Shown piece by piece: positions 4,382 to 19,320 of a stretch of DNA of 41,669 nucleotides. The DNA lies in contig JTLC01000040.1 in the NCBI GenBank assembly GCA_000798955.1, positions 1 through 41,669 of the forward strand, given 5' to 3'. The stretch comes from Firmicutes bacterium ZOR0006. GTDB taxonomy: Bacteria > Bacillota_I > Bacilli_A > Culicoidibacterales > ZOR0006. Within the stretch, counting starts at the first letter, position 1. Each line of letters opens with the position of its first letter. Position numbers and translations under genes: made by a program. A model generated the notes under the pieces. The model saw nothing but the letters and a program-made list of their open reading frames with translations. It was not told the DNA's origin and ran no database searches.

Positions 4382-5710
4382 ATGGGGTATATTCAACTCA
4401 TGAATGAGCAACCATGGCAAGAACAAGGAGCGTATGTGCTATATTGGGCACATGCGGCAATTCGCGTGCGCTATAACTTAGCGCTACTGCAAGCATTAGA
4501 ACTTGCTCGTGAGCAACAGAAACGCTTGTGTGTTGTGTACCAACTCGTACCGCAGTATCCTCAAGCAAATCGTCGTCATTTTGCATTTTTATTGCCTGGA
4601 TTGGCAGAATTTGGCGATCAACTGCAGAAACTCGGTTGTGATGTCGAAATTATTTGTGAACAAACAAATGAACAATTGCTCAAAAAATGTGAATTGGCAT
4701 GTGCTGTTGTGAGTGATACAAGTTATTTACGCTACTTTCGTGAAAAACAAGCCTTCATTGCGAAGCAAGTACCGTGTCAGTTTTATGCTGTTGAAACGAA
4801 TGTCGTAGTTCCTGTTCAAGAAGCAGCCGATAAACAAGCTTATAGTGCGGGGACTTTTCGACCGAAAATTACTAAGCAACTGAGTACGTATTTGCAACCA
4901 ATGCGTGATGTCAAAAGACTAGCTAAGCAGCACGGAAGCATCCGAGGAATGGAATGGTTGGATTATCAATATTTTTGCGAAACATGGGGATTAGCGACAA
5001 AAGTATTACCGGTCGCGAGTATTGGCGGTGAGCAAGCAGCACAGAGCCAACTTAGCCGTTTTCTCCACGAAGGTTTGGCAAAATATGGTCAAATCGCCAC
5101 GACTTTTGATGAAAGTGCAAGTTCACAATTGAGTGCATACTTACATTTTGGCCATATTAGCCCACTAGATATTGCTTTGCAAGTACAAAATTATCCAGCT
5201 TCACAACAAACAATTGATATATTTTTAGAACAATTAATTGTCCGGCGGGAATTAGCCATTAATTTTGTATATTACTGTGAAAAATATGATTGTTACCCCG
5301 AGGCGTTACCGAAATGGGCCCAAATCACACTAGCAAATCATGAACATGATCACCGAGAATATCTTTACGAGTATGAGTCATTTGCGCAAGCTGATACGCA
5401 TGATCCGATTTGGAACCAGGCCCAGAAACAATTATTAGTGACAGGACGCATGAACAACTACATGCGAATGTATTGGGGGAAAAAAGTAATAGAATGGACA
5501 GCAAGTTACGAACAGGCTTGGGAGTATTTGCTGCGCTTAAACGATACGTATGAACTCGATGGTCGTGACCCCAATGGTTATGTTGGAGTAGCTTGGTGTT
5601 TTGGTTTGCATGATCGTGCCTGGGCAGAACGTGAAATTTTTGGCAAAGTCCGCTATATGAATGAAACCGGTATTTATAAAAGGCAACGAGCAGCCAAACA
5701 AAAGAACTAA
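4382..5710 (+). CDS. deoxyribodipyrimidine photolyase, class II type
   Basis: Repairs UV-induced cyclobutane pyrimidine dimers using blue light, with FAD as catalytic cofactor. The 442 residues have the N-terminal alpha/beta photolyase domain (to about 145) and the helical FAD domain. Class II signatures are clear: FLEQLIVRRELAINFVYY, MRMYWGKKVIEW, and DGRDPNGYVGVAWCFG starting near residue 394, followed by HDRAW and FGKVRYMN. Class I enzymes look different in this region. The ATG at 4382 follows AAGGAGGGG with good spacing. The P-type ATPase gene starts 26 bases downstream without a terminator, so the two are probably cotranscribed. Class II photolyases are less usual in Bacillota than class I, which makes lateral acquisition possible. 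Confidence 0.9.
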   Translation: MGYIQLMNEQPWQEQGAYVLYWAHAAIRVRYNLALLQALELAREQQKRLCVVYQLVPQYPQANRRHFAFLLPGLAEFGDQLQKLGCDVEIICEQTNEQLLKKCELACAVVSDTSYLRYFREKQAFIAKQVPCQFYAVETNVVVPVQEAADKQAYSAGTFRPKITKQLSTYLQPMRDVKRLAKQHGSIRGMEWLDYQYFCETWGLATKVLPVASIGGEQAAQSQLSRFLHEGLAKYGQIATTFDESASSQLSAYLHFGHISPLDIALQVQNYPASQQTIDIFLEQLIVRRELAINFVYYCEKYDCYPEALPKWAQITLANHEHDHREYLYEYESFAQADTHDPIWNQAQKQLLVTGRMNNYMRMYWGKKVIEWTASYEQAWEYLLRLNDTYELDGRDPNGYVGVAWCFGLHDRAWAEREIFGKVRYMNETGIYKRQRAAKQKN

Positions 5711-5736: not shown

Positions 5737-8502
5737 ATGACGATTTTAGAACGAATGACAGCTTCGCCAGTCGATGACTGTCTAGAAGAATTTCATGTTG
5801 ATGGTCAACAAGGACTGACAAGTAGCCAAGTGGATATACAGCAAAAAAAATATGGTGAAAATATTTTGGCAAAACCCAAAAAAACACCAGGAATTTTGAT
5901 TTTTCTACGTAATTTTACACATTTGATGGCAATTTTATTGTGGGTTGGGGGGAGTGTTGCCTTTTTTGCTGGGATGCCACAACTCGGAATTGCTGTTTAC
6001 CTTGTCAATGTAATCAATGGGAGTTTTAGTTATTGGCAAGAACGCCAAGCCTCAAAAGCGAGTGAAGCACTGGCTAATATGCTACCGAATTATGTTCGTG
6101 TGCTTCGAAACGGCCATGATCAAAAGATTTTGGCACAAGAAGTTGTTCCCGGGGATATTTTACTATTAGGTGAAGGGGATAAAATTAGTGCTGATGCGAG
6201 ATTATTGGTAGCCGATGATTTACAAGTTGATCAATCAACACTCACTGGTGAAAGTCAAACTGTCCGCAAAAACCCACAACACCTTGCTGAAACTAAGGTG
6301 TCAATTGCAGAATATGCCAATATTGTGTACGCAGGGACAAATGTTGTCCAAGGGAGTGCGAAAGCAATGGTTTTTGCTAGCGGAATGGAAACCCAATTTG
6401 GTTCGATTGCCGCCCTCACTCAAGGAACAAAAGAAGAAATCTCGCCGTTACAACAACAATTAAACCGTTTGACAAAACAAATTTCATTAATTTCAATTTC
6501 TTTAGGTGTAATCTTCTTTTTAGCCGCTGTCTTTTTTGTTCAAGAGCCAATTGCGCTCGCCTTTATTTTTGCATTAGGAATGATTGTTGCCTTTATTCCG
6601 GAGGGCTTGTTGCCAACAGTGACACTTTCATTAGCAATGGCAGTTCAACGAATGGCAAAAAAACAAGCACTCGTAAAAAAATTATCGGCTGTTGAAACCT
6701 TAGGCAGCACAAGTGTGATTTGTACTGATAAAACAGGGACACTCACACAAAATGAAATGACAATTTCCCGTATTTTTAGCCAGGGAACTGAGTACCTCGT
6801 TTCAGGAATCGGTTATGATCCTCAAGGCGAAATTACCACAGTGACTGGTCTGAATGTTGATCAAGATAGTCAGATTCAAACCTTGATTCGGATCGGGGCA
6901 CTGTGTACAAATGCGCGAATTTTACAACCAACAGCCGAAAATCCACATTATCAAGTTTTAGGTGACCCAACAGAAGCGAGCTTACTAGTTTTAGCCGAAA
7001 AAAATCAGCAACAATTACAGCAACTTCAGCTACAGTATCCACGCCTACGGGAGTTAGCTTTTGATTCGCGTCGAAAACGGATGTCAACGATTCATCAAGG
7101 CGAGCAACACGAATATTTGTACTGCAAGGGGGCACCAAAAGAGGTACTGGAATTGTGTTCAAAAGTGCAAATGCGTGACGGCCTGACACCAATGACGGAT
7201 CAGAAATTTGTAGAAATTATGAACATGAATGATCAATATGCTCGCCAAGGCTTGCGGGTATTAGCACTAGCATATCGCGATTTACAAGCGGTTGAATTAC
7301 CGAAGCAAAAAAGTAAATACACACCAGAGTTACTTGAGCAAGATATGATTTTTGTTGGATTAGTAGCGATGAGTGATCCACCAAGACTTGAAGTAAAAGC
7401 AGCAGTTGAAAAATGCCATCAAGCAGGAATAAAAATTATTATGATGACTGGTGACTACGGATTAACGGCTGAAAGTATTGCACGCCAAATTGGTATTGTT
7501 GATACACCAGATGTTCAAGTTGTTTCAGGAATTGAATTAGCAAATATGAGTGAATCAAAACTTGAAGGTGTGTTACAGCAACCTGTTATTTTCGCCCGTG
7601 TAGCACCGGAACAAAAATTACGAATTGTTGAAGCACTGCAAGCACGAAAACAAATTGTGGCCATGACTGGTGATGGTGTCAATGATGCACCAGCATTGAA
7701 AAAAGCTGATATTGGCGTGGCGATGGGAATTAGTGGCAGCGATGTGGCAAAAGAAAGTGCAGATATGATTTTATTAGATGATAATTTTGCGAGCATTGTC
7801 GCTGCTATTGAAGAAGGGCGGACCGTGTATCGAAATATACGAAAATTCATTTTGTATATTTTAAATTCAAATGTACCTGAAGCAGTCCCAAGTGCAATGT
7901 TTTTACTTTCACGTGGGTTTATTCCGCTACCATTGACAATTATGCAGATTTTGGCTATTGATTTAGGAACAGATATGGTTCCAGCTTTAGGACTTGGAGT
8001 GGAAAAAAACGAAATTGATGTGATGAATCAACCACCACGGCCACCGCAAGAACGACTATTAAATCGGAACGTTTTAGTGAAAGCATTTCTTTGGTATGGC
8101 ATGCTCGAGGGTGTGGTCCTAGCATTGGCTTACTTTTTCATCAATTGGAATGCAGGCTGGCCAACTATCCCACTAGCAAGTGGAACAGATATCGTGTATT
8201 TGAAAGCAACAACGATGGCACTTGGAAGTATTGTCTTTTCACAAGTTGGAATGGTTATGAATTGTCGAACACAAACACAATCAGTTTTTTCTGTTGGTTT
8301 ATGGAGTAATAGCCGCATCAATTTAGGAATTGGTATTGAATTGGTACTATTTGCACTCATTGTGTATGTACCATTTTTGCAAACTATTTTTCATACTGCA
8401 CCGCTTGATCTCATCGATTGGCTCTTCTTATGTATTTGGCCATTTGTTATTGTTGGAATCGAAGAACTGCGAAAAATGTTTGTTCGCCGAGTAAAAAAGT
8501 AA
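5737..8502 (+). CDS. cation-transporting P-type ATPase, P2C (Na,K-ATPase-like)
   Basis: An ATP-driven cation pump of 921 residues in the cell membrane. Order: cation-ATPase N domain; TM1-2; actuator domain with TLTGES; TM3-4 with IPEGLLPTVT near residue 287; phosphorylation site [12 protein letters not shown] (aspartate near 331); nucleotide-binding domain with KGAPKE; MMTGD; GDGVNDAPALKKADIG; and six C-terminal membrane helices. PEGLL plus VETLGSTS before the phosphorylation site, and IDLGTDMVPALGLGVE near residue 741, match the Na,K-ATPase group. Ca2+ pumps have GCTS instead. The two aspartates of DLGTD correspond to Na,K-ATPase cation ligands. The ATG at 5737 follows TAGGGGTGAG. It is followed 14 bases later by two RCK genes, which suggests K+ or Na+ transport. 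The ion is inferred. Confidence 0.88.
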   Translation: MTILERMTASPVDDCLEEFHVDGQQGLTSSQVDIQQKKYGENILAKPKKTPGILIFLRNFTHLMAILLWVGGSVAFFAGMPQLGIAVYLVNVINGSFSYWQERQASKASEALANMLPNYVRVLRNGHDQKILAQEVVPGDILLLGEGDKISADARLLVADDLQVDQSTLTGESQTVRKNPQHLAETKVSIAEYANIVYAGTNVVQGSAKAMVFASGMETQFGSIAALTQGTKEEISPLQQQLNRLTKQISLISISLGVIFFLAAVFFVQEPIALAFIFALGMIVAFIPEGLLPTVTLSLAMAVQRMAKKQALVKKLSAVETLGSTSVICTDKTGTLTQNEMTISRIFSQGTEYLVSGIGYDPQGEITTVTGLNVDQDSQIQTLIRIGALCTNARILQPTAENPHYQVLGDPTEASLLVLAEKNQQQLQQLQLQYPRLRELAFDSRRKRMSTIHQGEQHEYLYCKGAPKEVLELCSKVQMRDGLTPMTDQKFVEIMNMNDQYARQGLRVLALAYRDLQAVELPKQKSKYTPELLEQDMIFVGLVAMSDPPRLEVKAAVEKCHQAGIKIIMMTGDYGLTAESIARQIGIVDTPDVQVVSGIELANMSESKLEGVLQQPVIFARVAPEQKLRIVEALQARKQIVAMTGDGVNDAPALKKADIGVAMGISGSDVAKESADMILLDDNFASIVAAIEEGRTVYRNIRKFILYILNSNVPEAVPSAMFLLSRGFIPLPLTIMQILAIDLGTDMVPALGLGVEKNEIDVMNQPPRPPQERLLNRNVLVKAFLWYGMLEGVVLALAYFFINWNAGWPTIPLASGTDIVYLKATTMALGSIVFSQVGMVMNCRTQTQSVFSVGLWSNSRINLGIGIELVLFALIVYVPFLQTIFHTAPLDLIDWLFLCIWPFVIVGIEELRKMFVRRVKK

Positions 8503-8516
8503 AGTGAGGGATAATT

Positions 8517-9173
8517 ATGAAAGTAATTGTGATTGGTGCCGGACGGCTAGGACTAGGAGTTTTTTGGCAACTTCGTGCGCAACATTATCAAGTTATCATG
8601 ATTGAAGCAGATGGACAAAAAGCCAAGCTGCTTCAAAAACAAGCCCCTGAATCGCTAGTCATAGGTCCGTTATTTGCCCAAAAAACGCTTGAAGTAGCTG
8701 GGATTGCGACCTGTGATGCTGTTATTGTCTGTACACCCGATGATGAGGTCAATGCTGTTCTTGCACGAGTTGCAAAACAGACCTATCATGTGCCTAAAGT
8801 TATTGCGCGATTATACGATCCGTTAAAAGCTGATATTTATTCAGCACTAGGCATCCAAGCCTTAGCAACGACACTCTGGGGAGTAGAACGTGTCCTCGAG
8901 TTAGTGACGTATTCTCATCTCGATAGTATTTATGAATTTAATCATGGTGATGTTCGCCTTGTGCGGGTAGCTGTACCAACATTTTGGTGGGGAAAAACGA
9001 TTACAAATTTAAATTATAATCAAGAAATTCAAGTGGTTGCGATTCAACGGGAGAATCGCGCCTTTATTCCACAACCGACAGAGCTGTTTTCGCCACATGA
9101 TTTTGTTTATCTGACAGTGACAAATTTTGCCAGTGATCGACTCCAAACAATGTTAGGGTTAAAGGGGGAATAA
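8517..9173 (+). CDS. TrkA-type RCK protein (RCK_N + RCK_C)
   Basis: A 218-residue cytoplasmic regulatory subunit of the TrkA/KtrA type. Residues 1 to about 118 form a Rossmann RCK_N domain with the nucleotide-binding GAGRLG (residues 7-12) and an acidic residue at the end of strand 2 (IEAD). Residues about 135-215 are an RCK_C domain of the kind that binds small ligands such as c-di-AMP. Such proteins normally gate K+ channels (TrkH, KtrB) in response to nucleotides. No pore gene is present. The upstream neighbour is the P2C ATPase, 14 bases away, and the downstream neighbour is a second RCK protein. The three genes look like one transcription unit. Confidence 0.88.
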   Translation: MKVIVIGAGRLGLGVFWQLRAQHYQVIMIEADGQKAKLLQKQAPESLVIGPLFAQKTLEVAGIATCDAVIVCTPDDEVNAVLARVAKQTYHVPKVIARLYDPLKADIYSALGIQALATTLWGVERVLELVTYSHLDSIYEFNHGDVRLVRVAVPTFWWGKTITNLNYNQEIQVVAIQRENRAFIPQPTELFSPHDFVYLTVTNFASDRLQTMLGLKGE

Positions 9174-9176
9174 GTG

Positions 9177-9605
9177 ATGAAAGTATTGATTATCGGTGGT
9201 GGTGAACTTGGCGGCCATGTTTTACAAGCATTGCCAAGAACAACAGAGTGTTGTGTGATTGAAATTGATGAAGAGAAATGTCGGATATTACAAGAAAAGT
9301 TTCCAGACGTGACAATTCTACAAGGAAGTGGCAGTGATGTTGCTTTACTTGAAAGTGTTGAATGTGAACAGATGGATGTTGTTTTAGCAATGAGTAATCG
9401 TGATGAAGTAAATCTTGTTGTAGCAACGATCTGTAAATTTGATTTTGGTGTGAGTCAAGTTATTGCACGAGCAAATGAAAGTGAGCATCGTTGGCTCTTC
9501 ACAGCAGAAAATGGTGTTGATGCGACGATTGTGCAAACTGATTTGATTGTTCAAGGAATGATTCAACGACTTCAAGAAATTATGACAGCAGCACAATTTG
9601 ATTGA
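9177..9605 (+). CDS. RCK_N-only TrkA-type protein
   Basis: A 142-residue protein that is essentially one Rossmann RCK_N domain: GGGELG at residues 7-12, acidic EID at the end of strand 2, GSGSD, and the RCK-typical VVLAMSNRDEVNLVVA. Unlike its neighbour it lacks an RCK_C domain, so it should bind nucleotide but not the RCK_C ligand. It begins three bases after the upstream RCK gene, with AAGGGGGAA as ribosome-binding site; a GTG at 9174 is a possible alternative start. Tandem RCK pairs are known in other bacteria (CeoB/CeoC in mycobacteria) and can form mixed assemblies. A heteromeric complex is inferred here. It has diverged strongly from the first copy. Confidence 0.85.
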   Translation: MKVLIIGGGELGGHVLQALPRTTECCVIEIDEEKCRILQEKFPDVTILQGSGSDVALLESVECEQMDVVLAMSNRDEVNLVVATICKFDFGVSQVIARANESEHRWLFTAENGVDATIVQTDLIVQGMIQRLQEIMTAAQFD

Positions 9606-9630
9606 CAAAATGAGAAGAGACTCCTAAAAT
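9602..9630 (+). promoter_or_regulatory. sigma-A promoter of the carbonic anhydrase gene
   Basis: TTGACA at 9602-9607, 17 bases, TAAAAT at 9625-9630. The -35 overlaps the stop codon of the second RCK gene, so carbonic anhydrase can be expressed independently of the ATPase-RCK unit. Confidence 0.75.
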
Positions 9631-9672: not shown

Positions 9673-10251
9673 ATGAAAAAAGAGCATACAGCAGGAGTAC
9701 ATGCACATGTTGAAATGTTTTTAGCAGCAAATCGTGAATTTGTGGAGCAGCGACACTATGTCGAGTATCCGGCGTCTAAATTTCCCGCACAAAAAACATT
9801 AATTTTATCATGTATGGATGCCCGCCTCTCAGCGCTTTTACTCCCAGCCTTAGGTTTGAAAAATGGAGAAGTAAATGTCATTAAATCAGCGGGAGCTGTC
9901 ATCACTGATCCTTACGGATCGTTGATGCGTTCAGTACTCGTTGCGATTTACGAATTCGATGTTGAACATATCTTTGTCATTGGACATGATGATTGTGGCA
10001 TGGCGCATTTAGATGGCTATCAAATGGTGGAAAAAATGCAGCAACGTGGAATTAGTAAAGCCGTTATTGATGCAGTTCATCATCATGTTGACCTCGAGAA
10101 TTGGCTGCAAAAAATTGGTCATAGTGAAGCCAGCATCGGAAGAACTGTAAAGCTCATCCGAGACCACCCGTTACTCCCAAGGAATGTAAAAACACATGGG
10201 TTATGCTTAAGTCCAGAAACGGGTGCATTACGTGTGGTTGAGAATGCGTAA
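9673..10251 (+). CDS. beta-class carbonic anhydrase
   Basis: Interconverts CO2 and bicarbonate in the cytoplasm, supplying bicarbonate for carboxylases and helping pH balance. The 192-residue protein shows the beta-class zinc motif CMDAR (C47, D49, R51) and HDDC (H105, C108). Its size and the KSAGAVITDPYGS segment resemble the small Bacillus YvdA-type enzymes. The ATG at 9673 follows GAGGAGG at 9661-9667; an upstream in-frame TTG lacks a ribosome-binding site. It has its own promoter and a terminator downstream, so it is monocistronic or the optional end of the preceding operon. Confidence 0.9.
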   Translation: MKKEHTAGVHAHVEMFLAANREFVEQRHYVEYPASKFPAQKTLILSCMDARLSALLLPALGLKNGEVNVIKSAGAVITDPYGSLMRSVLVAIYEFDVEHIFVIGHDDCGMAHLDGYQMVEKMQQRGISKAVIDAVHHHVDLENWLQKIGHSEASIGRTVKLIRDHPLLPRNVKTHGLCLSPETGALRVVENA

Positions 10252-15023: not shown

Positions 15024-16235
15024 ATGGCAGGAGTGAGCTTCATAATAATCTTGATTTTTATTTTAGTTGGTGCCCATTATTTTGGTAAGGGAGCGGAACG
15101 AATGAAGCTACCAAGCTTGTTAGGAATGATGGGTTTTGGTTTACTTATTGGTCCAGCATTGCTGAACATCTTACCAACAGTGACTTTGAATCAAGCTGGT
15201 TTTTTTAAAGATACTGCCTTGGTGATTGTCTTATTTATTGCTGGACTGGGCATTAGTTGGCAACAAATGAAAACAATTGGTCGCCCCGCGGTCTTACTTA
15301 GCAGTGTTCCCGCACTGCTTGAAGGATTTACCATTGCCGGATTGGCTATGTGGTTATTTGATTTTAACTTTGTGCAAGGTGCGATTCTAGGCTTCATTAT
15401 TGCTGCGGTTAGTCCAGCTGTGCTAATTCCAGCAATGATTGATCTCGTTCAGCGGCGCTATGGTGAAAAAAAAGCAATTCCACAAATGCTTTTAGTTGGT
15501 GCATCGGCAGATGATACAATTGCGATTACCTTTTTTACCATGTTTTTGACGATTTATACACAGCAAGCTCAGGGCTTAACAGCGAATCCATGGCAGCAAT
15601 TACTCCAAATTCCACTGATGCTCATCGTGAGTATTAGTGTGCCATTTCTGTTGGCCAAATTGCTCCACCCGTTGCTGAAAAGGATGAATCATCCACTTTT
15701 GCTTGTGGGAGTGACCTTTTTCTGTGCCTATATAATGCGTGTCGTTGAGACAACTACACATACACCAATTTTCAATTCACTCCTAGCAGTGATGATGTTT
15801 GGTTTCTTCTTGCGCTTTGATTTTGAAGCGAAAGCTATTTTAGTTCAGGTACAGATGCAACGACTTTGGCAATATGGGAAAGTGTATCTCTTTGTTTTTG
15901 TTGGTGCTGCAATTGATCCATTTTTAGTCGGCAACTTTTTCTTGAGTGGTGGGCTGATGTTGCTCATTTCTTTAACAGTGCGTTCGTTGGGGGTTTATCT
16001 CTCACTGATAGGGACCAACTTAACTTGGAGTGAACGTTTCTTTTGTGCAATTGCGTACTTACCAAAAGCAACGGTACAATCGGCAAAGGCTGGTGTCCCG
16101 TTACAAGCGGGCGTTGCTGGTGGTGAAGAGATGCAAGCATTAGCAATTTTGAGCGTTCTCATTACGGCGCCAATTGGTGCAATCGGGATTAAATATTTTG
16201 CTCCCAAAATTTTAGAACAAGCTGTAGATGAATAA
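15024..16235 (+). CDS. monovalent cation:proton antiporter (CPA family)
   Basis: A 403-residue integral membrane protein with about 11-13 hydrophobic helices and no cytoplasmic C-terminal domain. It matches the Na+/H+ exchanger fold: LPSLLGMMGFGLLIGPALL near residue 30, ISWQQMK near residue 76, and AVSPAVLIPAMI near residue 131. The ion-binding pair in GASADDTIAITFF (about residues 158-170) is Asp-Asp. Such transporters exchange Na+ or K+ for H+ to control pH and salt. A start ATG follows AAGGATGAGG. It is monocistronic, between an extended -10 promoter and a terminator. It lacks TrkA-N domains, unlike KefB/KefC types. Na+ versus K+ is not decidable here. Confidence 0.87.
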   Translation: MAGVSFIIILIFILVGAHYFGKGAERMKLPSLLGMMGFGLLIGPALLNILPTVTLNQAGFFKDTALVIVLFIAGLGISWQQMKTIGRPAVLLSSVPALLEGFTIAGLAMWLFDFNFVQGAILGFIIAAVSPAVLIPAMIDLVQRRYGEKKAIPQMLLVGASADDTIAITFFTMFLTIYTQQAQGLTANPWQQLLQIPLMLIVSISVPFLLAKLLHPLLKRMNHPLLLVGVTFFCAYIMRVVETTTHTPIFNSLLAVMMFGFFLRFDFEAKAILVQVQMQRLWQYGKVYLFVFVGAAIDPFLVGNFFLSGGLMLLISLTVRSLGVYLSLIGTNLTWSERFFCAIAYLPKATVQSAKAGVPLQAGVAGGEEMQALAILSVLITAPIGAIGIKYFAPKILEQAVDE

Positions 16236-16379: not shown

Positions 16380-16925
16380 ATGATGGTGAAGGAGCACGAG
16401 TACTATTATTGGTCGAAAGTAACGAGTGTGATAGCGAGTAGTGTGGTGATAGGAAAAAGCATGTGGTATTTGCTGACACAATTTATTTTTGGCGTAGCAA
16501 ACGGCTACTATTGGCCACAACCTTATTTGGCAGCGAAAGATTTGCCAGCAATGGCAACTGACAGTCCATTAATGCTAAATGAAGTAGGGAGTGCCGGAGC
16601 TGGCACTGATGCCATGCCGATGGCACCAGAGCTGATCGTCACCTCTGATCTGTATGCTCTTTTCGCTACGGTTCAGTCCATCCTGACGATTGTAGCCGTC
16701 TTAGTTATCATTTTATGGGCAATTTTTTTACTGTATCAAAGTCAGCGACTGACAAAAAAACGGAGTAACTGGCAACTAGTCCTTTTTTGGGTAACGGCCG
16801 TTGGCGCTTTTATTAGTAATTTTTGGCTAATTGGTAGTTTTTATTTTTTAAGTGGTGCCTGTTTAAGGTTTGCGCATCAACAGCAAAAGACAAAAGGAGG
16901 GACGAGCGATGAAAGTGACCTTTAA
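16380..16925 (+). CDS. unknown three-helix membrane protein coupled to copA
   Basis: A 181-residue membrane protein that I do not recognise. Hydrophobic segments lie at about residues 14-40, 95-119 and 131-160. The stretch between the first two (about 41-92) holds four methionines (M58, M65, M79, M81), among them the pair MPM, plus acidic residues. If outside the cell, it could bind copper. The C-terminus is basic then acidic. Its last 17 bases overlap copA (start 16909), so the two are translationally coupled and a role in copper handling is inferred. GGAGGAG at 16364-16370 precedes three tandem start codons (GTG 16377, ATG 16380, ATG 16383); I chose the middle one. A -10-like TATAGT lies at 16346-16351. 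Confidence 0.7.
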
Positions 16926-19320
16926 TATCCAAGGGATGAGTTGTGCGAACTGTGCGACTACGATTGAAAAGACGCTCCAAAGTATGAGTGGCGTTGAGAC
17001 CGCAAGTGTCAATTTCGCCTTAGAAAAAGTATATGTGAGCTATCAGGCCCCAGCGACAGTTGCGAAAATGCAAGCGGCATTTATAACGTCAAATTATCGG
17101 CTCCAACCGGAGATGCCACTCTATACGGCACAATTTACGATTATTGGGATGAGCTGTGCGAATTGTGTGAATACAGTTGAACAAGCAGTTACAGCAGTGC
17201 CGGAACTTGAAAGTGCTGTTGTTAATTTCACGACCGAAATTTTGACCGTTACAAGTGTGGAACCGATTGATGAAGCCCGTTTAGTACAAGTAGTCGCGGA
17301 GAATGGTTATCAAGCTGAAAAATTAGCTTTTACGAATGCTACTCAGCAACAACAAAGCCGTGAAAGTCAGAAGCGCCAAGAGTTTGCGCAGATGAAGCAA
17401 CGACTCAGATGGATGAGTATTTGTACCATTCCGTTATTTATCTTAGCGATGTTACCAATGTTTGGCGTAATGATTCCCCTTGATTATCGCCTTCAAATAG
17501 TATTGCAATTTGGACTCGTAGTACCAGTCATGGTACTAGGCTGGCATTTTTACCGTACTGGCTTTCAGCGATTGATTCGCTTTGATCCAAATATGGATTC
17601 ATTGATTGCATTAGGAACAAGTGCAGCATTTATTTATAGCCTTTGGCTTGCTTGGGAAACATGGATGATAACGAGTCATCAAGGTCACCCAAGTGTCCAT
17701 TTATATTTAGAAACAGTGGCAGTGATTCTGACTTTAATTCAATTAGGTAAATGGTTAGAAGCCCGTTCAAAATATCAAGCATCAGCAGCGATTGAACAAC
17801 TTATCGCACTAGTGCCGACAACGGCAACCCAGTTGCTTGCAGAACAGTCGCAAGAAATTGCGGTGAGTGAGATTGTCCACGGGATGCACTTGCTTGTAAA
17901 ACCAGGCGAAAAAATTCCGGTTGATGGTCTGGTGCTGGATGGGCAATCTGCTGTCAACGAAGCCATGTTAACGGGTGAAAGTTTACCAGTTGAAAAGTAT
18001 CAAGGCGCAAAAGTGAGTGCTGGGACAGTGAATACAACAGGGCGATTAGTTATTGAAGCAACCGGTGTTGGTAGTGAAACGACAGTCGCACAAATTATTG
18101 CCTTAGTGAGCCAGGCACAAGCACAAAAACCGCCAATTGCACGGTTAGCAGATACAATTTCTCGTTATTTTGTCCCAACAGTGATGATAATTGCGCTCGT
18201 TACATTCATTGGCTGGTTTGTATTTGGTCAAGAGCCATTTGATTTTGCCCTTCAAGCCGCGATAGCAGTCCTTGTCATTGCGTGTCCATGTGCATTAGGG
18301 CTAGCGACACCAACATCGATTATGGTTGGTACTGGTCGTGGAGCCAAACAAGGGATTTTAATCAAAGGTGGTGAATCATTAGAGTTACTCCACACGATTG
18401 AAACAGTTGTCTTTGATAAAACCGGAACCTTAACACAAGGTGAGTTAGTTGTGACCGATGTTCTTGGTGACAAAGAAGCACTTGAATTAGCAGCAAGTGC
18501 AGAAGTAAATTCGGAACATCCAATTGCCAAAGCAATCATCCGCTATGCTAAAGAACAGAATTGGGTATTGCAACCAGTTGAGAGTTTTGGTGCACAAATT
18601 GGAGCTGGTGTTGAAGCGCAAATTGCCAATCAAAGCGTTTTTGTTGGTCAATGTGAGTTCACAGAAAATTGGATTCAACACCAACAACGTTTGGCACAGG
18701 AGGCGAAAACTGTCATTGCGGTTCAGATCAACCAAGAGATTCAAGCAGTGATTGCCCTGGCAGATACGTTGCGCCCAACGAGCAAGGCGGCAGTAGAAGC
18801 ATTACAAACACTCGGGTTAGAAGTAGTGATGTTGACCGGTGATAATCAGCAAACAGCAGCACAAATTGCGACAGAATTAGGTGTCGATCACGTGTTTGCG
18901 CAAGTATTACCAACGCAAAAAGCGCAAAAAATCCAATTGTTACAAGCACAACATAAACGTGTAGCGATGGTTGGTGATGGGATGAATGATGCACCAGCAT
19001 TGGCTCAAGCAGATGTTGGAATTGCTTTAGGAGCTGGAACTGATGTTGCTATTGAATCTGCAGATGTAGTCTTGATGAAAAGTGATCCGTTTGCAGTTGT
19101 TCAGGCTTATCAGTTATCGCGAGCAACAATTCGGAACATTCAACAGAATTTTTTCTGGGCATTTATCTATAATATTATTGGTATCCCAATCGCTGCTGGA
19201 ATTTTAGTCCTCTTTGGTGGTCCAGCACTAGATCCGATGTTTGCCGCCTTAGCGATGGCATTCAGCTCAGTTTCAGTTGTTTTAAACGCATTGCGATTGC
19301 GATATCTCAAACTAAAATAA
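16909..19320 (+). CDS. copA: Cu+-exporting P1B-type ATPase CopA
   Basis: Exports Cu+ across the cell membrane using ATP. The 803 residues have two N-terminal heavy-metal-associated domains, each with GMSCANC (about residues 8-14 and 79-85). Eight membrane helices follow, with the actuator domain TGES, the transport motif ACPCALG near residue 459, the phosphorylation site DKTGTLTQG near 503, the class-specific SEHP, and [23 protein letters not shown] and [14 protein letters not shown] near the end carry the YN and MxxSS residues of the P1B-1 (Cu+) subgroup. The ATG at 16909 follows GGAGGG. No copZ chaperone, csoR or copY regulator is adjacent, and I found no TACAnnTGTA operator upstream. Confidence 0.93.

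Follow-up and report, generated by a model that had tools for sequence, protein, structure and literature searches.

A recurring gene trio in distant bacteria suggests a Na,K-ATPase-like pump governed by a channel-type control ring

RCK proteins are known to gate channels and secondary transporters. In Firmicutes bacterium ZOR0006, two genes for RCK proteins (RCK1 and RCK2) follow the gene for a Na,K-ATPase-like P-type ATPase, and an earlier note made from the sequence alone had proposed that the pair may control this pump directly, the operon having no Trk/Ktr pore. Which membrane protein, then, do the two RCK proteins serve? The locus lies on a stretch of 41,669 nucleotides (contig JTLC01000040.1 of assembly GCA_000798955.1, here C42), which we call the window, in a genome of 1.97 Mb rated 100% complete. 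We consider it fairly probable that the ATPase, RCK1 and RCK2 form one functional unit, a monovalent-cation pump with a two-subunit RCK regulator. This reading is based on a conserved and closely spaced set of genes, the residues of the pump's ion site, the separate clades of the RCK proteins and the lack of TrkH/KtrB in half of the surveyed genomes with the trio; the rest we infer.

Linkage of the pump with the RCK pair

The ATPase gene (921 amino acids; positions 5737..8502, forward strand) starts with ATG at 5737 and ends with the stop codon at 8500-8502. RCK1 (218 amino acids; 8517..9173, forward strand) starts 14 nucleotides past the ATPase, and the ATG of RCK2 (142 amino acids; 9177..9605, forward strand; ATG 9177, stop 9603-9605) is 3 nucleotides past RCK1. 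Both RCK genes are in the same frame, with one TAA and a GTG (9174) between them; the GTG is an alternative start of RCK2 directly after RCK1, and no terminator-like site was found at their junction. When the sequence was re-read, the gene coordinates, order, spacing and motifs quoted in the earlier note proved correct.

The earlier note had also called for a search of genomes for P2C ATPase genes near RCK pairs, and the search found the linkage conserved. Linkage was scored from ATPase-based searches of 344 genomes of the phylum and 301 genomes of Chloroflexota. The phylum, Bacillota, gave 19 strong matches: all 13 pumps with about 46% identity or more had an RCK pair downstream, and the other 6, with about 42% or less, did not. 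In Chloroflexota, the pair was present next to 18 of the 21 pumps that had at least 43% identity and next to none of the 9 checked below that value. Combined, RCK1 and RCK2 lay directly downstream, on the same strand and in the same order, in 31 of 34 pumps at or above 43% identity vs 0 of 15 checked below. Within the window's class, the five top-ranking relatives of RCK1 likewise all showed the order ATPase-RCK1-RCK2. Two more trio loci came from an RCK search (L011 and L012), L012 being a metagenome-assembled genome of Actinomycetota, and plasmid p1 of Streptomyces fungicidicus carries an annotated trio (WP_338058027.1, WP_121549000.1 and WP_121549001.1) in which each overlap is 4 nucleotides. 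Across 33 loci the median gap was 4 nucleotides between ATPase and RCK1 and 13 nucleotides between RCK1 and RCK2, often with overlaps of 4 nucleotides, and the only constant partner of the RCK pair was the pump. Because the photolyase and carbonic anhydrase neighbours of the window's trio were not found outside the window's genus, the trio is the unit that persists. Chance adjacency is ruled out by the linkage counts together with the differing flanking genes outside the genus.

Three loci have features of their own. The trio of S. fungicidicus plasmid p1 (L147 1142-10544) sits among genes for universal stress proteins, Hsp20, a nitroreductase and nicotinate phosphoribosyltransferase. This setting recalls the DosR regulon of mycobacteria, one member of which is the P-type ATPase CtpF (PMC3573892). 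In the single-contig genome G026 the pump gene is in two frames near residue 370 (L084 7877-10701), either a broken gene or an assembly error, and in G001, of the window's genus, the N-terminal 30 codons of the pump are in another frame (L080 ~9240), an indel that is real or from assembly.

We then surveyed K+ transporters in 16 genomes with the trio. TrkH/KtrB was absent from 8 of them (G008, G041, G235, G236, G239, G329, G363 and G364), and in 6 others every TrkH was adjoined by an RCK gene of its own. KdpA was found in none of the 16, and Kup only in the window's genome (G000) and G001. A further 13 of 20 Chloroflexota pump genomes, for which completeness was not given, had no TrkH. In one family (f7), 10 genomes were drawn regardless of TrkH or trio: the 2 TrkH-less genomes both had the trio, and the 7 trio-less genomes all had TrkH. 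This complementary distribution is suggestive, in a sample that is too small and has related members. Taken together, the occurrence of the trio in Bacillota, Chloroflexota and Actinomycetota, the RCK clades described below and the TrkH/KtrB-less genomes uphold the proposal that the RCK pair goes with the pump.

The RCK proteins, the pump and a possible mechanism

RCK1 matched TrkA_N with 78.9 bits (cut-off 23.8) and TrkA_C below threshold, with 24.6 bits vs a cut-off of 27; RCK2 matched TrkA_N with 80.5 bits (cut-off 23.8) and had no TrkA_C. The RCK_C domain is missing from RCK2 in the window's genus and several Chloroflexota and is present in most relatives; it was lost at least twice, in the window's genus and in one group of Chloroflexota. 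The GxGxxG motif, present in RCK1, occurs in all 66 pump-linked RCK proteins. In a tree of 132 RCK domains, the pump-linked RCK1 and RCK2 proteins formed one clade each (Shimodaira-Hasegawa-like approximate likelihood ratio test, SH-aLRT, 87 and 88), and the two proteins of the window were placed inside these clades and outside the TrkH-linked ones. The pump-linked clades adjoin split RCK pairs that are linked to TrkH and stand apart from single KtrA and from both halves of tandem TrkA, a position that fits the pump having recruited a split TrkA-type ring. A related RCK pair in Nonomuraea gerenzanensis (L149 2843-6327) has a divergent gene for a permease of the APC type (AA_permease_2) as its neighbour, so that split RCK pairs seem to switch transporter partners.

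The closest solved relatives of RCK1 and RCK2 are TrkA or TM1088A/B. A model of RCK1 and RCK2 read through as one chain had the TrkA gating ring as its best match, with confidence in sequence order; it is uninformative on the heteromer because the relative placement of the domains fails to superpose (template-modelling score, TM, 0.32). The earlier note had suggested nucleotide control that could include cyclic di-AMP (c-di-AMP). The RCK_C signature for this ligand, (I/L)(I/L)X2DX1RX5N(I/L)(I/L), which we took from PMC10117811, was present in none of the 66 pump-linked RCK proteins, the loosened pattern included. Control by c-di-AMP thus has no sequence support here.

The pump contains the motifs IPEGLLPTVT, VETLGSTS and IDLGTDMVPALG, and exceeds the Pfam cut-offs for E1-E2_ATPase, Cation_ATPase_C and Cation_ATPase_N. 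Like other P-type ATPases it has DKTGT (residues 331-335) together with HAD hydrolase and E1-E2 ATPase domains. The acids of its ion site are E289 in M4, E715 in M5, D742 and D746 in M6 and E868 in M9, and S711, N712 and Q836 belong to the same site. From the alignment and general knowledge, we take E289, E715, D742, D746, Q836 and E868 to correspond to E327, E779, D804, D808, Q923 and E954 of Na,K-ATPase. In the linked pumps these residues are kept at E289 (32/32), E715 (33/33), D742 (33/33), D746 (30/33), Q836 (33/33) and E868 (29/33). All four acids of the K+ sites (equivalents of E327, E779, D804 and D808) are therefore in the window pump, and each is in at least 30 of 33 linked pumps. At the D804 position, 33 of 33 linked pumps have Asp, whereas in 10 of 15 RCK-free relatives the Asn of Ca pumps takes its place. 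Among the residues of Na+ site III, those equivalent to Q923 and E954 are conserved, and the position of D926 is occupied by M in the window pump and by N in most relatives. By sequence, the closest solved relative is the Na,K-ATPase alpha subunit, and the AlphaFold2 model of the pump (predicted local distance difference test, pLDDT, 81) has Na,K-ATPase as its best PDB fold match, with SERCA fitting well too. Judged from these residues, the ion site of the window pump would work like that of a P2C pump.

We propose that the trio encodes an ATP-driven pump of the Na,K-ATPase type, which would probably move Na+ out and K+ in. RCK1 and RCK2 would most likely form a heteromer like TM1088A:TM1088B or the TrkA gating ring, in contact with the pump. 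The GxGxxG sites of this heteromer may bind adenine nucleotides, either ATP/ADP or NAD(H), and the nucleotide-bound ring would toggle the pump between an active and an inactive state, with control presumably passing from ring to pump. A fuller statement is tentative, possible but short of probable: a K+-channel gating ring was recruited as the regulator of a P-type pump, giving a nucleotide-gated Na+/K+-type ATPase that takes over K+ import from Trk/Ktr, Kdp and Kup in several TrkH-less bacteria.

Points against the functional unit and other explanations

Several observations weigh against a functional unit of pump and RCK pair, or against its proposed ions. The pump scores below the cut-off of TIGR01106, the Na,K family model (632.3 vs 946.1 bits), and also below that of the PMR1-type Ca model (639.1 vs 798.3 bits); because the family models put it between the Na,K and Ca types, under both cut-offs, we do not assign it to TIGR01106. 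The earlier note had held that an orphan trkH or ktrB elsewhere in the genome that binds these RCK proteins would speak against its proposal, and TrkH genes without an RCK neighbour do occur, only in the window's genus, three in the window's genome and two in G001. The window's genome also encodes two two-transmembrane (2TM) K+ channels and one Kup. Because KimA-type transporters were not surveyed in the TrkH-less genomes, the pump as their only K+ importer is a hypothesis. Pumps of the family exist without RCK proteins: three in Chloroflexota that fall within the linked clade (L114, L115 and L130), and others on plasmids of Lactiplantibacillus plantarum (53% identity) and of cyanobacteria (44-46% identity). 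The pump tree, plasmid pumps included, calls for at least four to five changes of the RCK state, and no natural fusion of ATPase and RCK was seen. The pump trees covered bacterial relatives only.

The RCK-free pumps rule out a universal requirement for RCK proteins; since such family members exist, the RCK proteins are an accessory that is gained or lost and not essential to the pump. The L. plantarum plasmids with the RCK-free pump (L150 and L151) are mobilizable. Another RCK-free family pump, in G653 (L144 6087-9640), overlaps by 4 nucleotides with the next gene, whose product starts like a Sir2-type deacetylase.

The alternative that survives best concerns the ions and is compatible with RCK control: the pump would export Na+ without moving K+ in return, or would be a Ca2+ pump. 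A P-type Na+-ATPase has been reported in Exiguobacterium aurantiacum (Ueno et al. 2000, via PMC2928168). Moreover, the scores with the PMR1-type Ca and Na,K models are about equal, and the D926 position is M or N, not D. However, the acids of the K+ sites of Na,K-ATPase are all kept in the pump, while the Ca-pump Asn at D742 is found in 10 of the 15 RCK-free relatives; the best PDB match by both sequence and fold is Na,K-ATPase, and the RCK partners point to K+. We regard this alternative as somewhat unlikely.

A second alternative is that, in the window's genome, the RCK pair gates orphan TrkH/KtrB pores as a split TrkA and the pump is a neighbour with a related task. That there is no Trk/Ktr pore, as the earlier note had stated, holds for the operon and the window, but not for the genome, in which three tandem TrkH/KtrB genes (433-443 amino acids) lie on contig C43 (L009 4222-8407) with no RCK gene nearby. 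An RCK search of this genome gave the window pair as the sole clear matches, with three others marginal, and G001 likewise has its two orphan TrkH. In addition, the pair is of the split-TrkA type and sister to TrkH-linked split pairs. On the other hand, the RCK pair stays with the pump in the 8 TrkH/KtrB-less genomes and in the 6 where TrkH has its own RCK, and the window's RCK proteins are placed in the pump-linked clades. That the pair is dedicated to TrkH is ruled out as the general explanation by the TrkH-less genomes and by TrkH genes with RCK genes of their own, and for the window's genome we consider it unlikely that gating of these pores is the role of the pair. In the window's genus, given its orphan trkH genes, the pump-linked RCK proteins might serve TrkH in trans as well as the pump.

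Least probable, in our view, is a K+-homeostasis neighbourhood in which pump and RCK pair make no contact and the pair acts in trans on a KimA-type permease, a 2TM K+ channel or a cation/proton antiporter (CPA). In G008, a genome of genus g8, a gene for a 2TM K+ channel (160 amino acids, filter TIGYGD; L082 5763-6245) lies on the opposite strand, convergent with RCK2, and G235 and G239 seem to share this layout, each with a 2TM channel gene that is near the operon and converges on RCK2. Related actinomycete RCK pairs sit elsewhere, as the Nonomuraea pair does, and the window encodes a CPA antiporter 5.4 kb farther downstream. However, a 2TM channel was not found in 5 of the 8 TrkH-less genomes (G041, G236, G329, G363 and G364) and lies in the operon nowhere else, in a survey that did not take in KimA and antiporters; the pump alone is the constant partner across the loci.

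Neighbouring genes and comparison with known systems

Upstream of the trio, a photolyase gene (4382..5710, forward strand) ends 26 nucleotides 5' of the ATPase. It is a neighbour shared only with G001 of the window's genus and is probably not part of the pump-RCK system; because it ends so close to the ATPase, the pump transcript may begin farther upstream. Downstream of RCK2 come a carbonic anhydrase-like gene (9673..10251) and then HtpG. The earlier note had given the next gene its own promoter. A plausible site, TTGACA-17-TAAAAT (9602..9630, forward strand), matches the consensus best among the promoter-like sites of the region and may start the transcript of the carbonic anhydrase-like gene; promoter-like sites in the region are nevertheless at chance number (14 found vs 14.1 expected). 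Farther downstream, the window encodes a Na+/H+ exchanger-type antiporter (PF00999) without a regulatory domain (15024-16235), 5.4 kb from the RCK pair, and a second P-type ATPase with HMA domains, of the heavy-metal type (16870-19320).

If true, an RCK-controlled primary pump would extend RCK proteins to a new class of machine. The operon offers a short, testable bacterial case for the role of prokaryotic relatives of Na,K-ATPase, with the RCK-free pumps as natural controls and with some trio genomes in which none of TrkH/KtrB, KdpA and Kup was found. The open-access literature yielded no account of RCK subunits in a P-type ATPase, subscription papers not being covered. A review of P-type ATPases (PMC10654040) lists the accessory subunits of each class without naming TrkA and treats the function of archaeal P2C pumps as an open question.

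Among known systems, mycobacterial CeoB/CeoC are also two adjacent TrkA-type proteins with no pore subunit named (PMC13163235), but unlike the trio they are not reported with a P-type ATPase. KdpFABC is likewise a K+ P-type ATPase with extra subunits; it belongs to a different ATPase class and has no RCK proteins, and its KdpA is the subunit missing from the surveyed trio genomes. KhtTU and CpeAB each have a soluble partner of a K+ transporter that contains RCK_C (PMC10117811), but there the transporter is an antiporter and not a pump, and the c-di-AMP signature is present, unlike in the pump-linked RCK proteins. Na,K-ATPase, as a P2C pump, resembles the trio's pump in fold, DKTGT, PEGLL in M4, the acids E327, E779, D804, D808 and E954, and Q923; the trio differs in having no gene for a beta or gamma subunit in the operon, a residue other than Asp at the D926 position and two co-encoded RCK proteins. 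TM1088A:TM1088B of Thermotoga maritima (PDB 3L4B), in which TM1088B has 218 and TM1088A about 143 amino acids, matches RCK1 and RCK2 in size and crystallised as a two-subunit octameric ring; it is described as a gating assembly of a TrkA K+ channel, with no pump. Finally, TrkA/TrkH and KtrA/KtrB share with the trio the RCK_N domain with GxGxxG, RCK1 plus RCK2 being equivalent to one tandem TrkA subunit, whereas the RCK proteins of the trio form separate clades and their co-encoded membrane partner is a P-type ATPase instead of a TrkH/KtrB pore.

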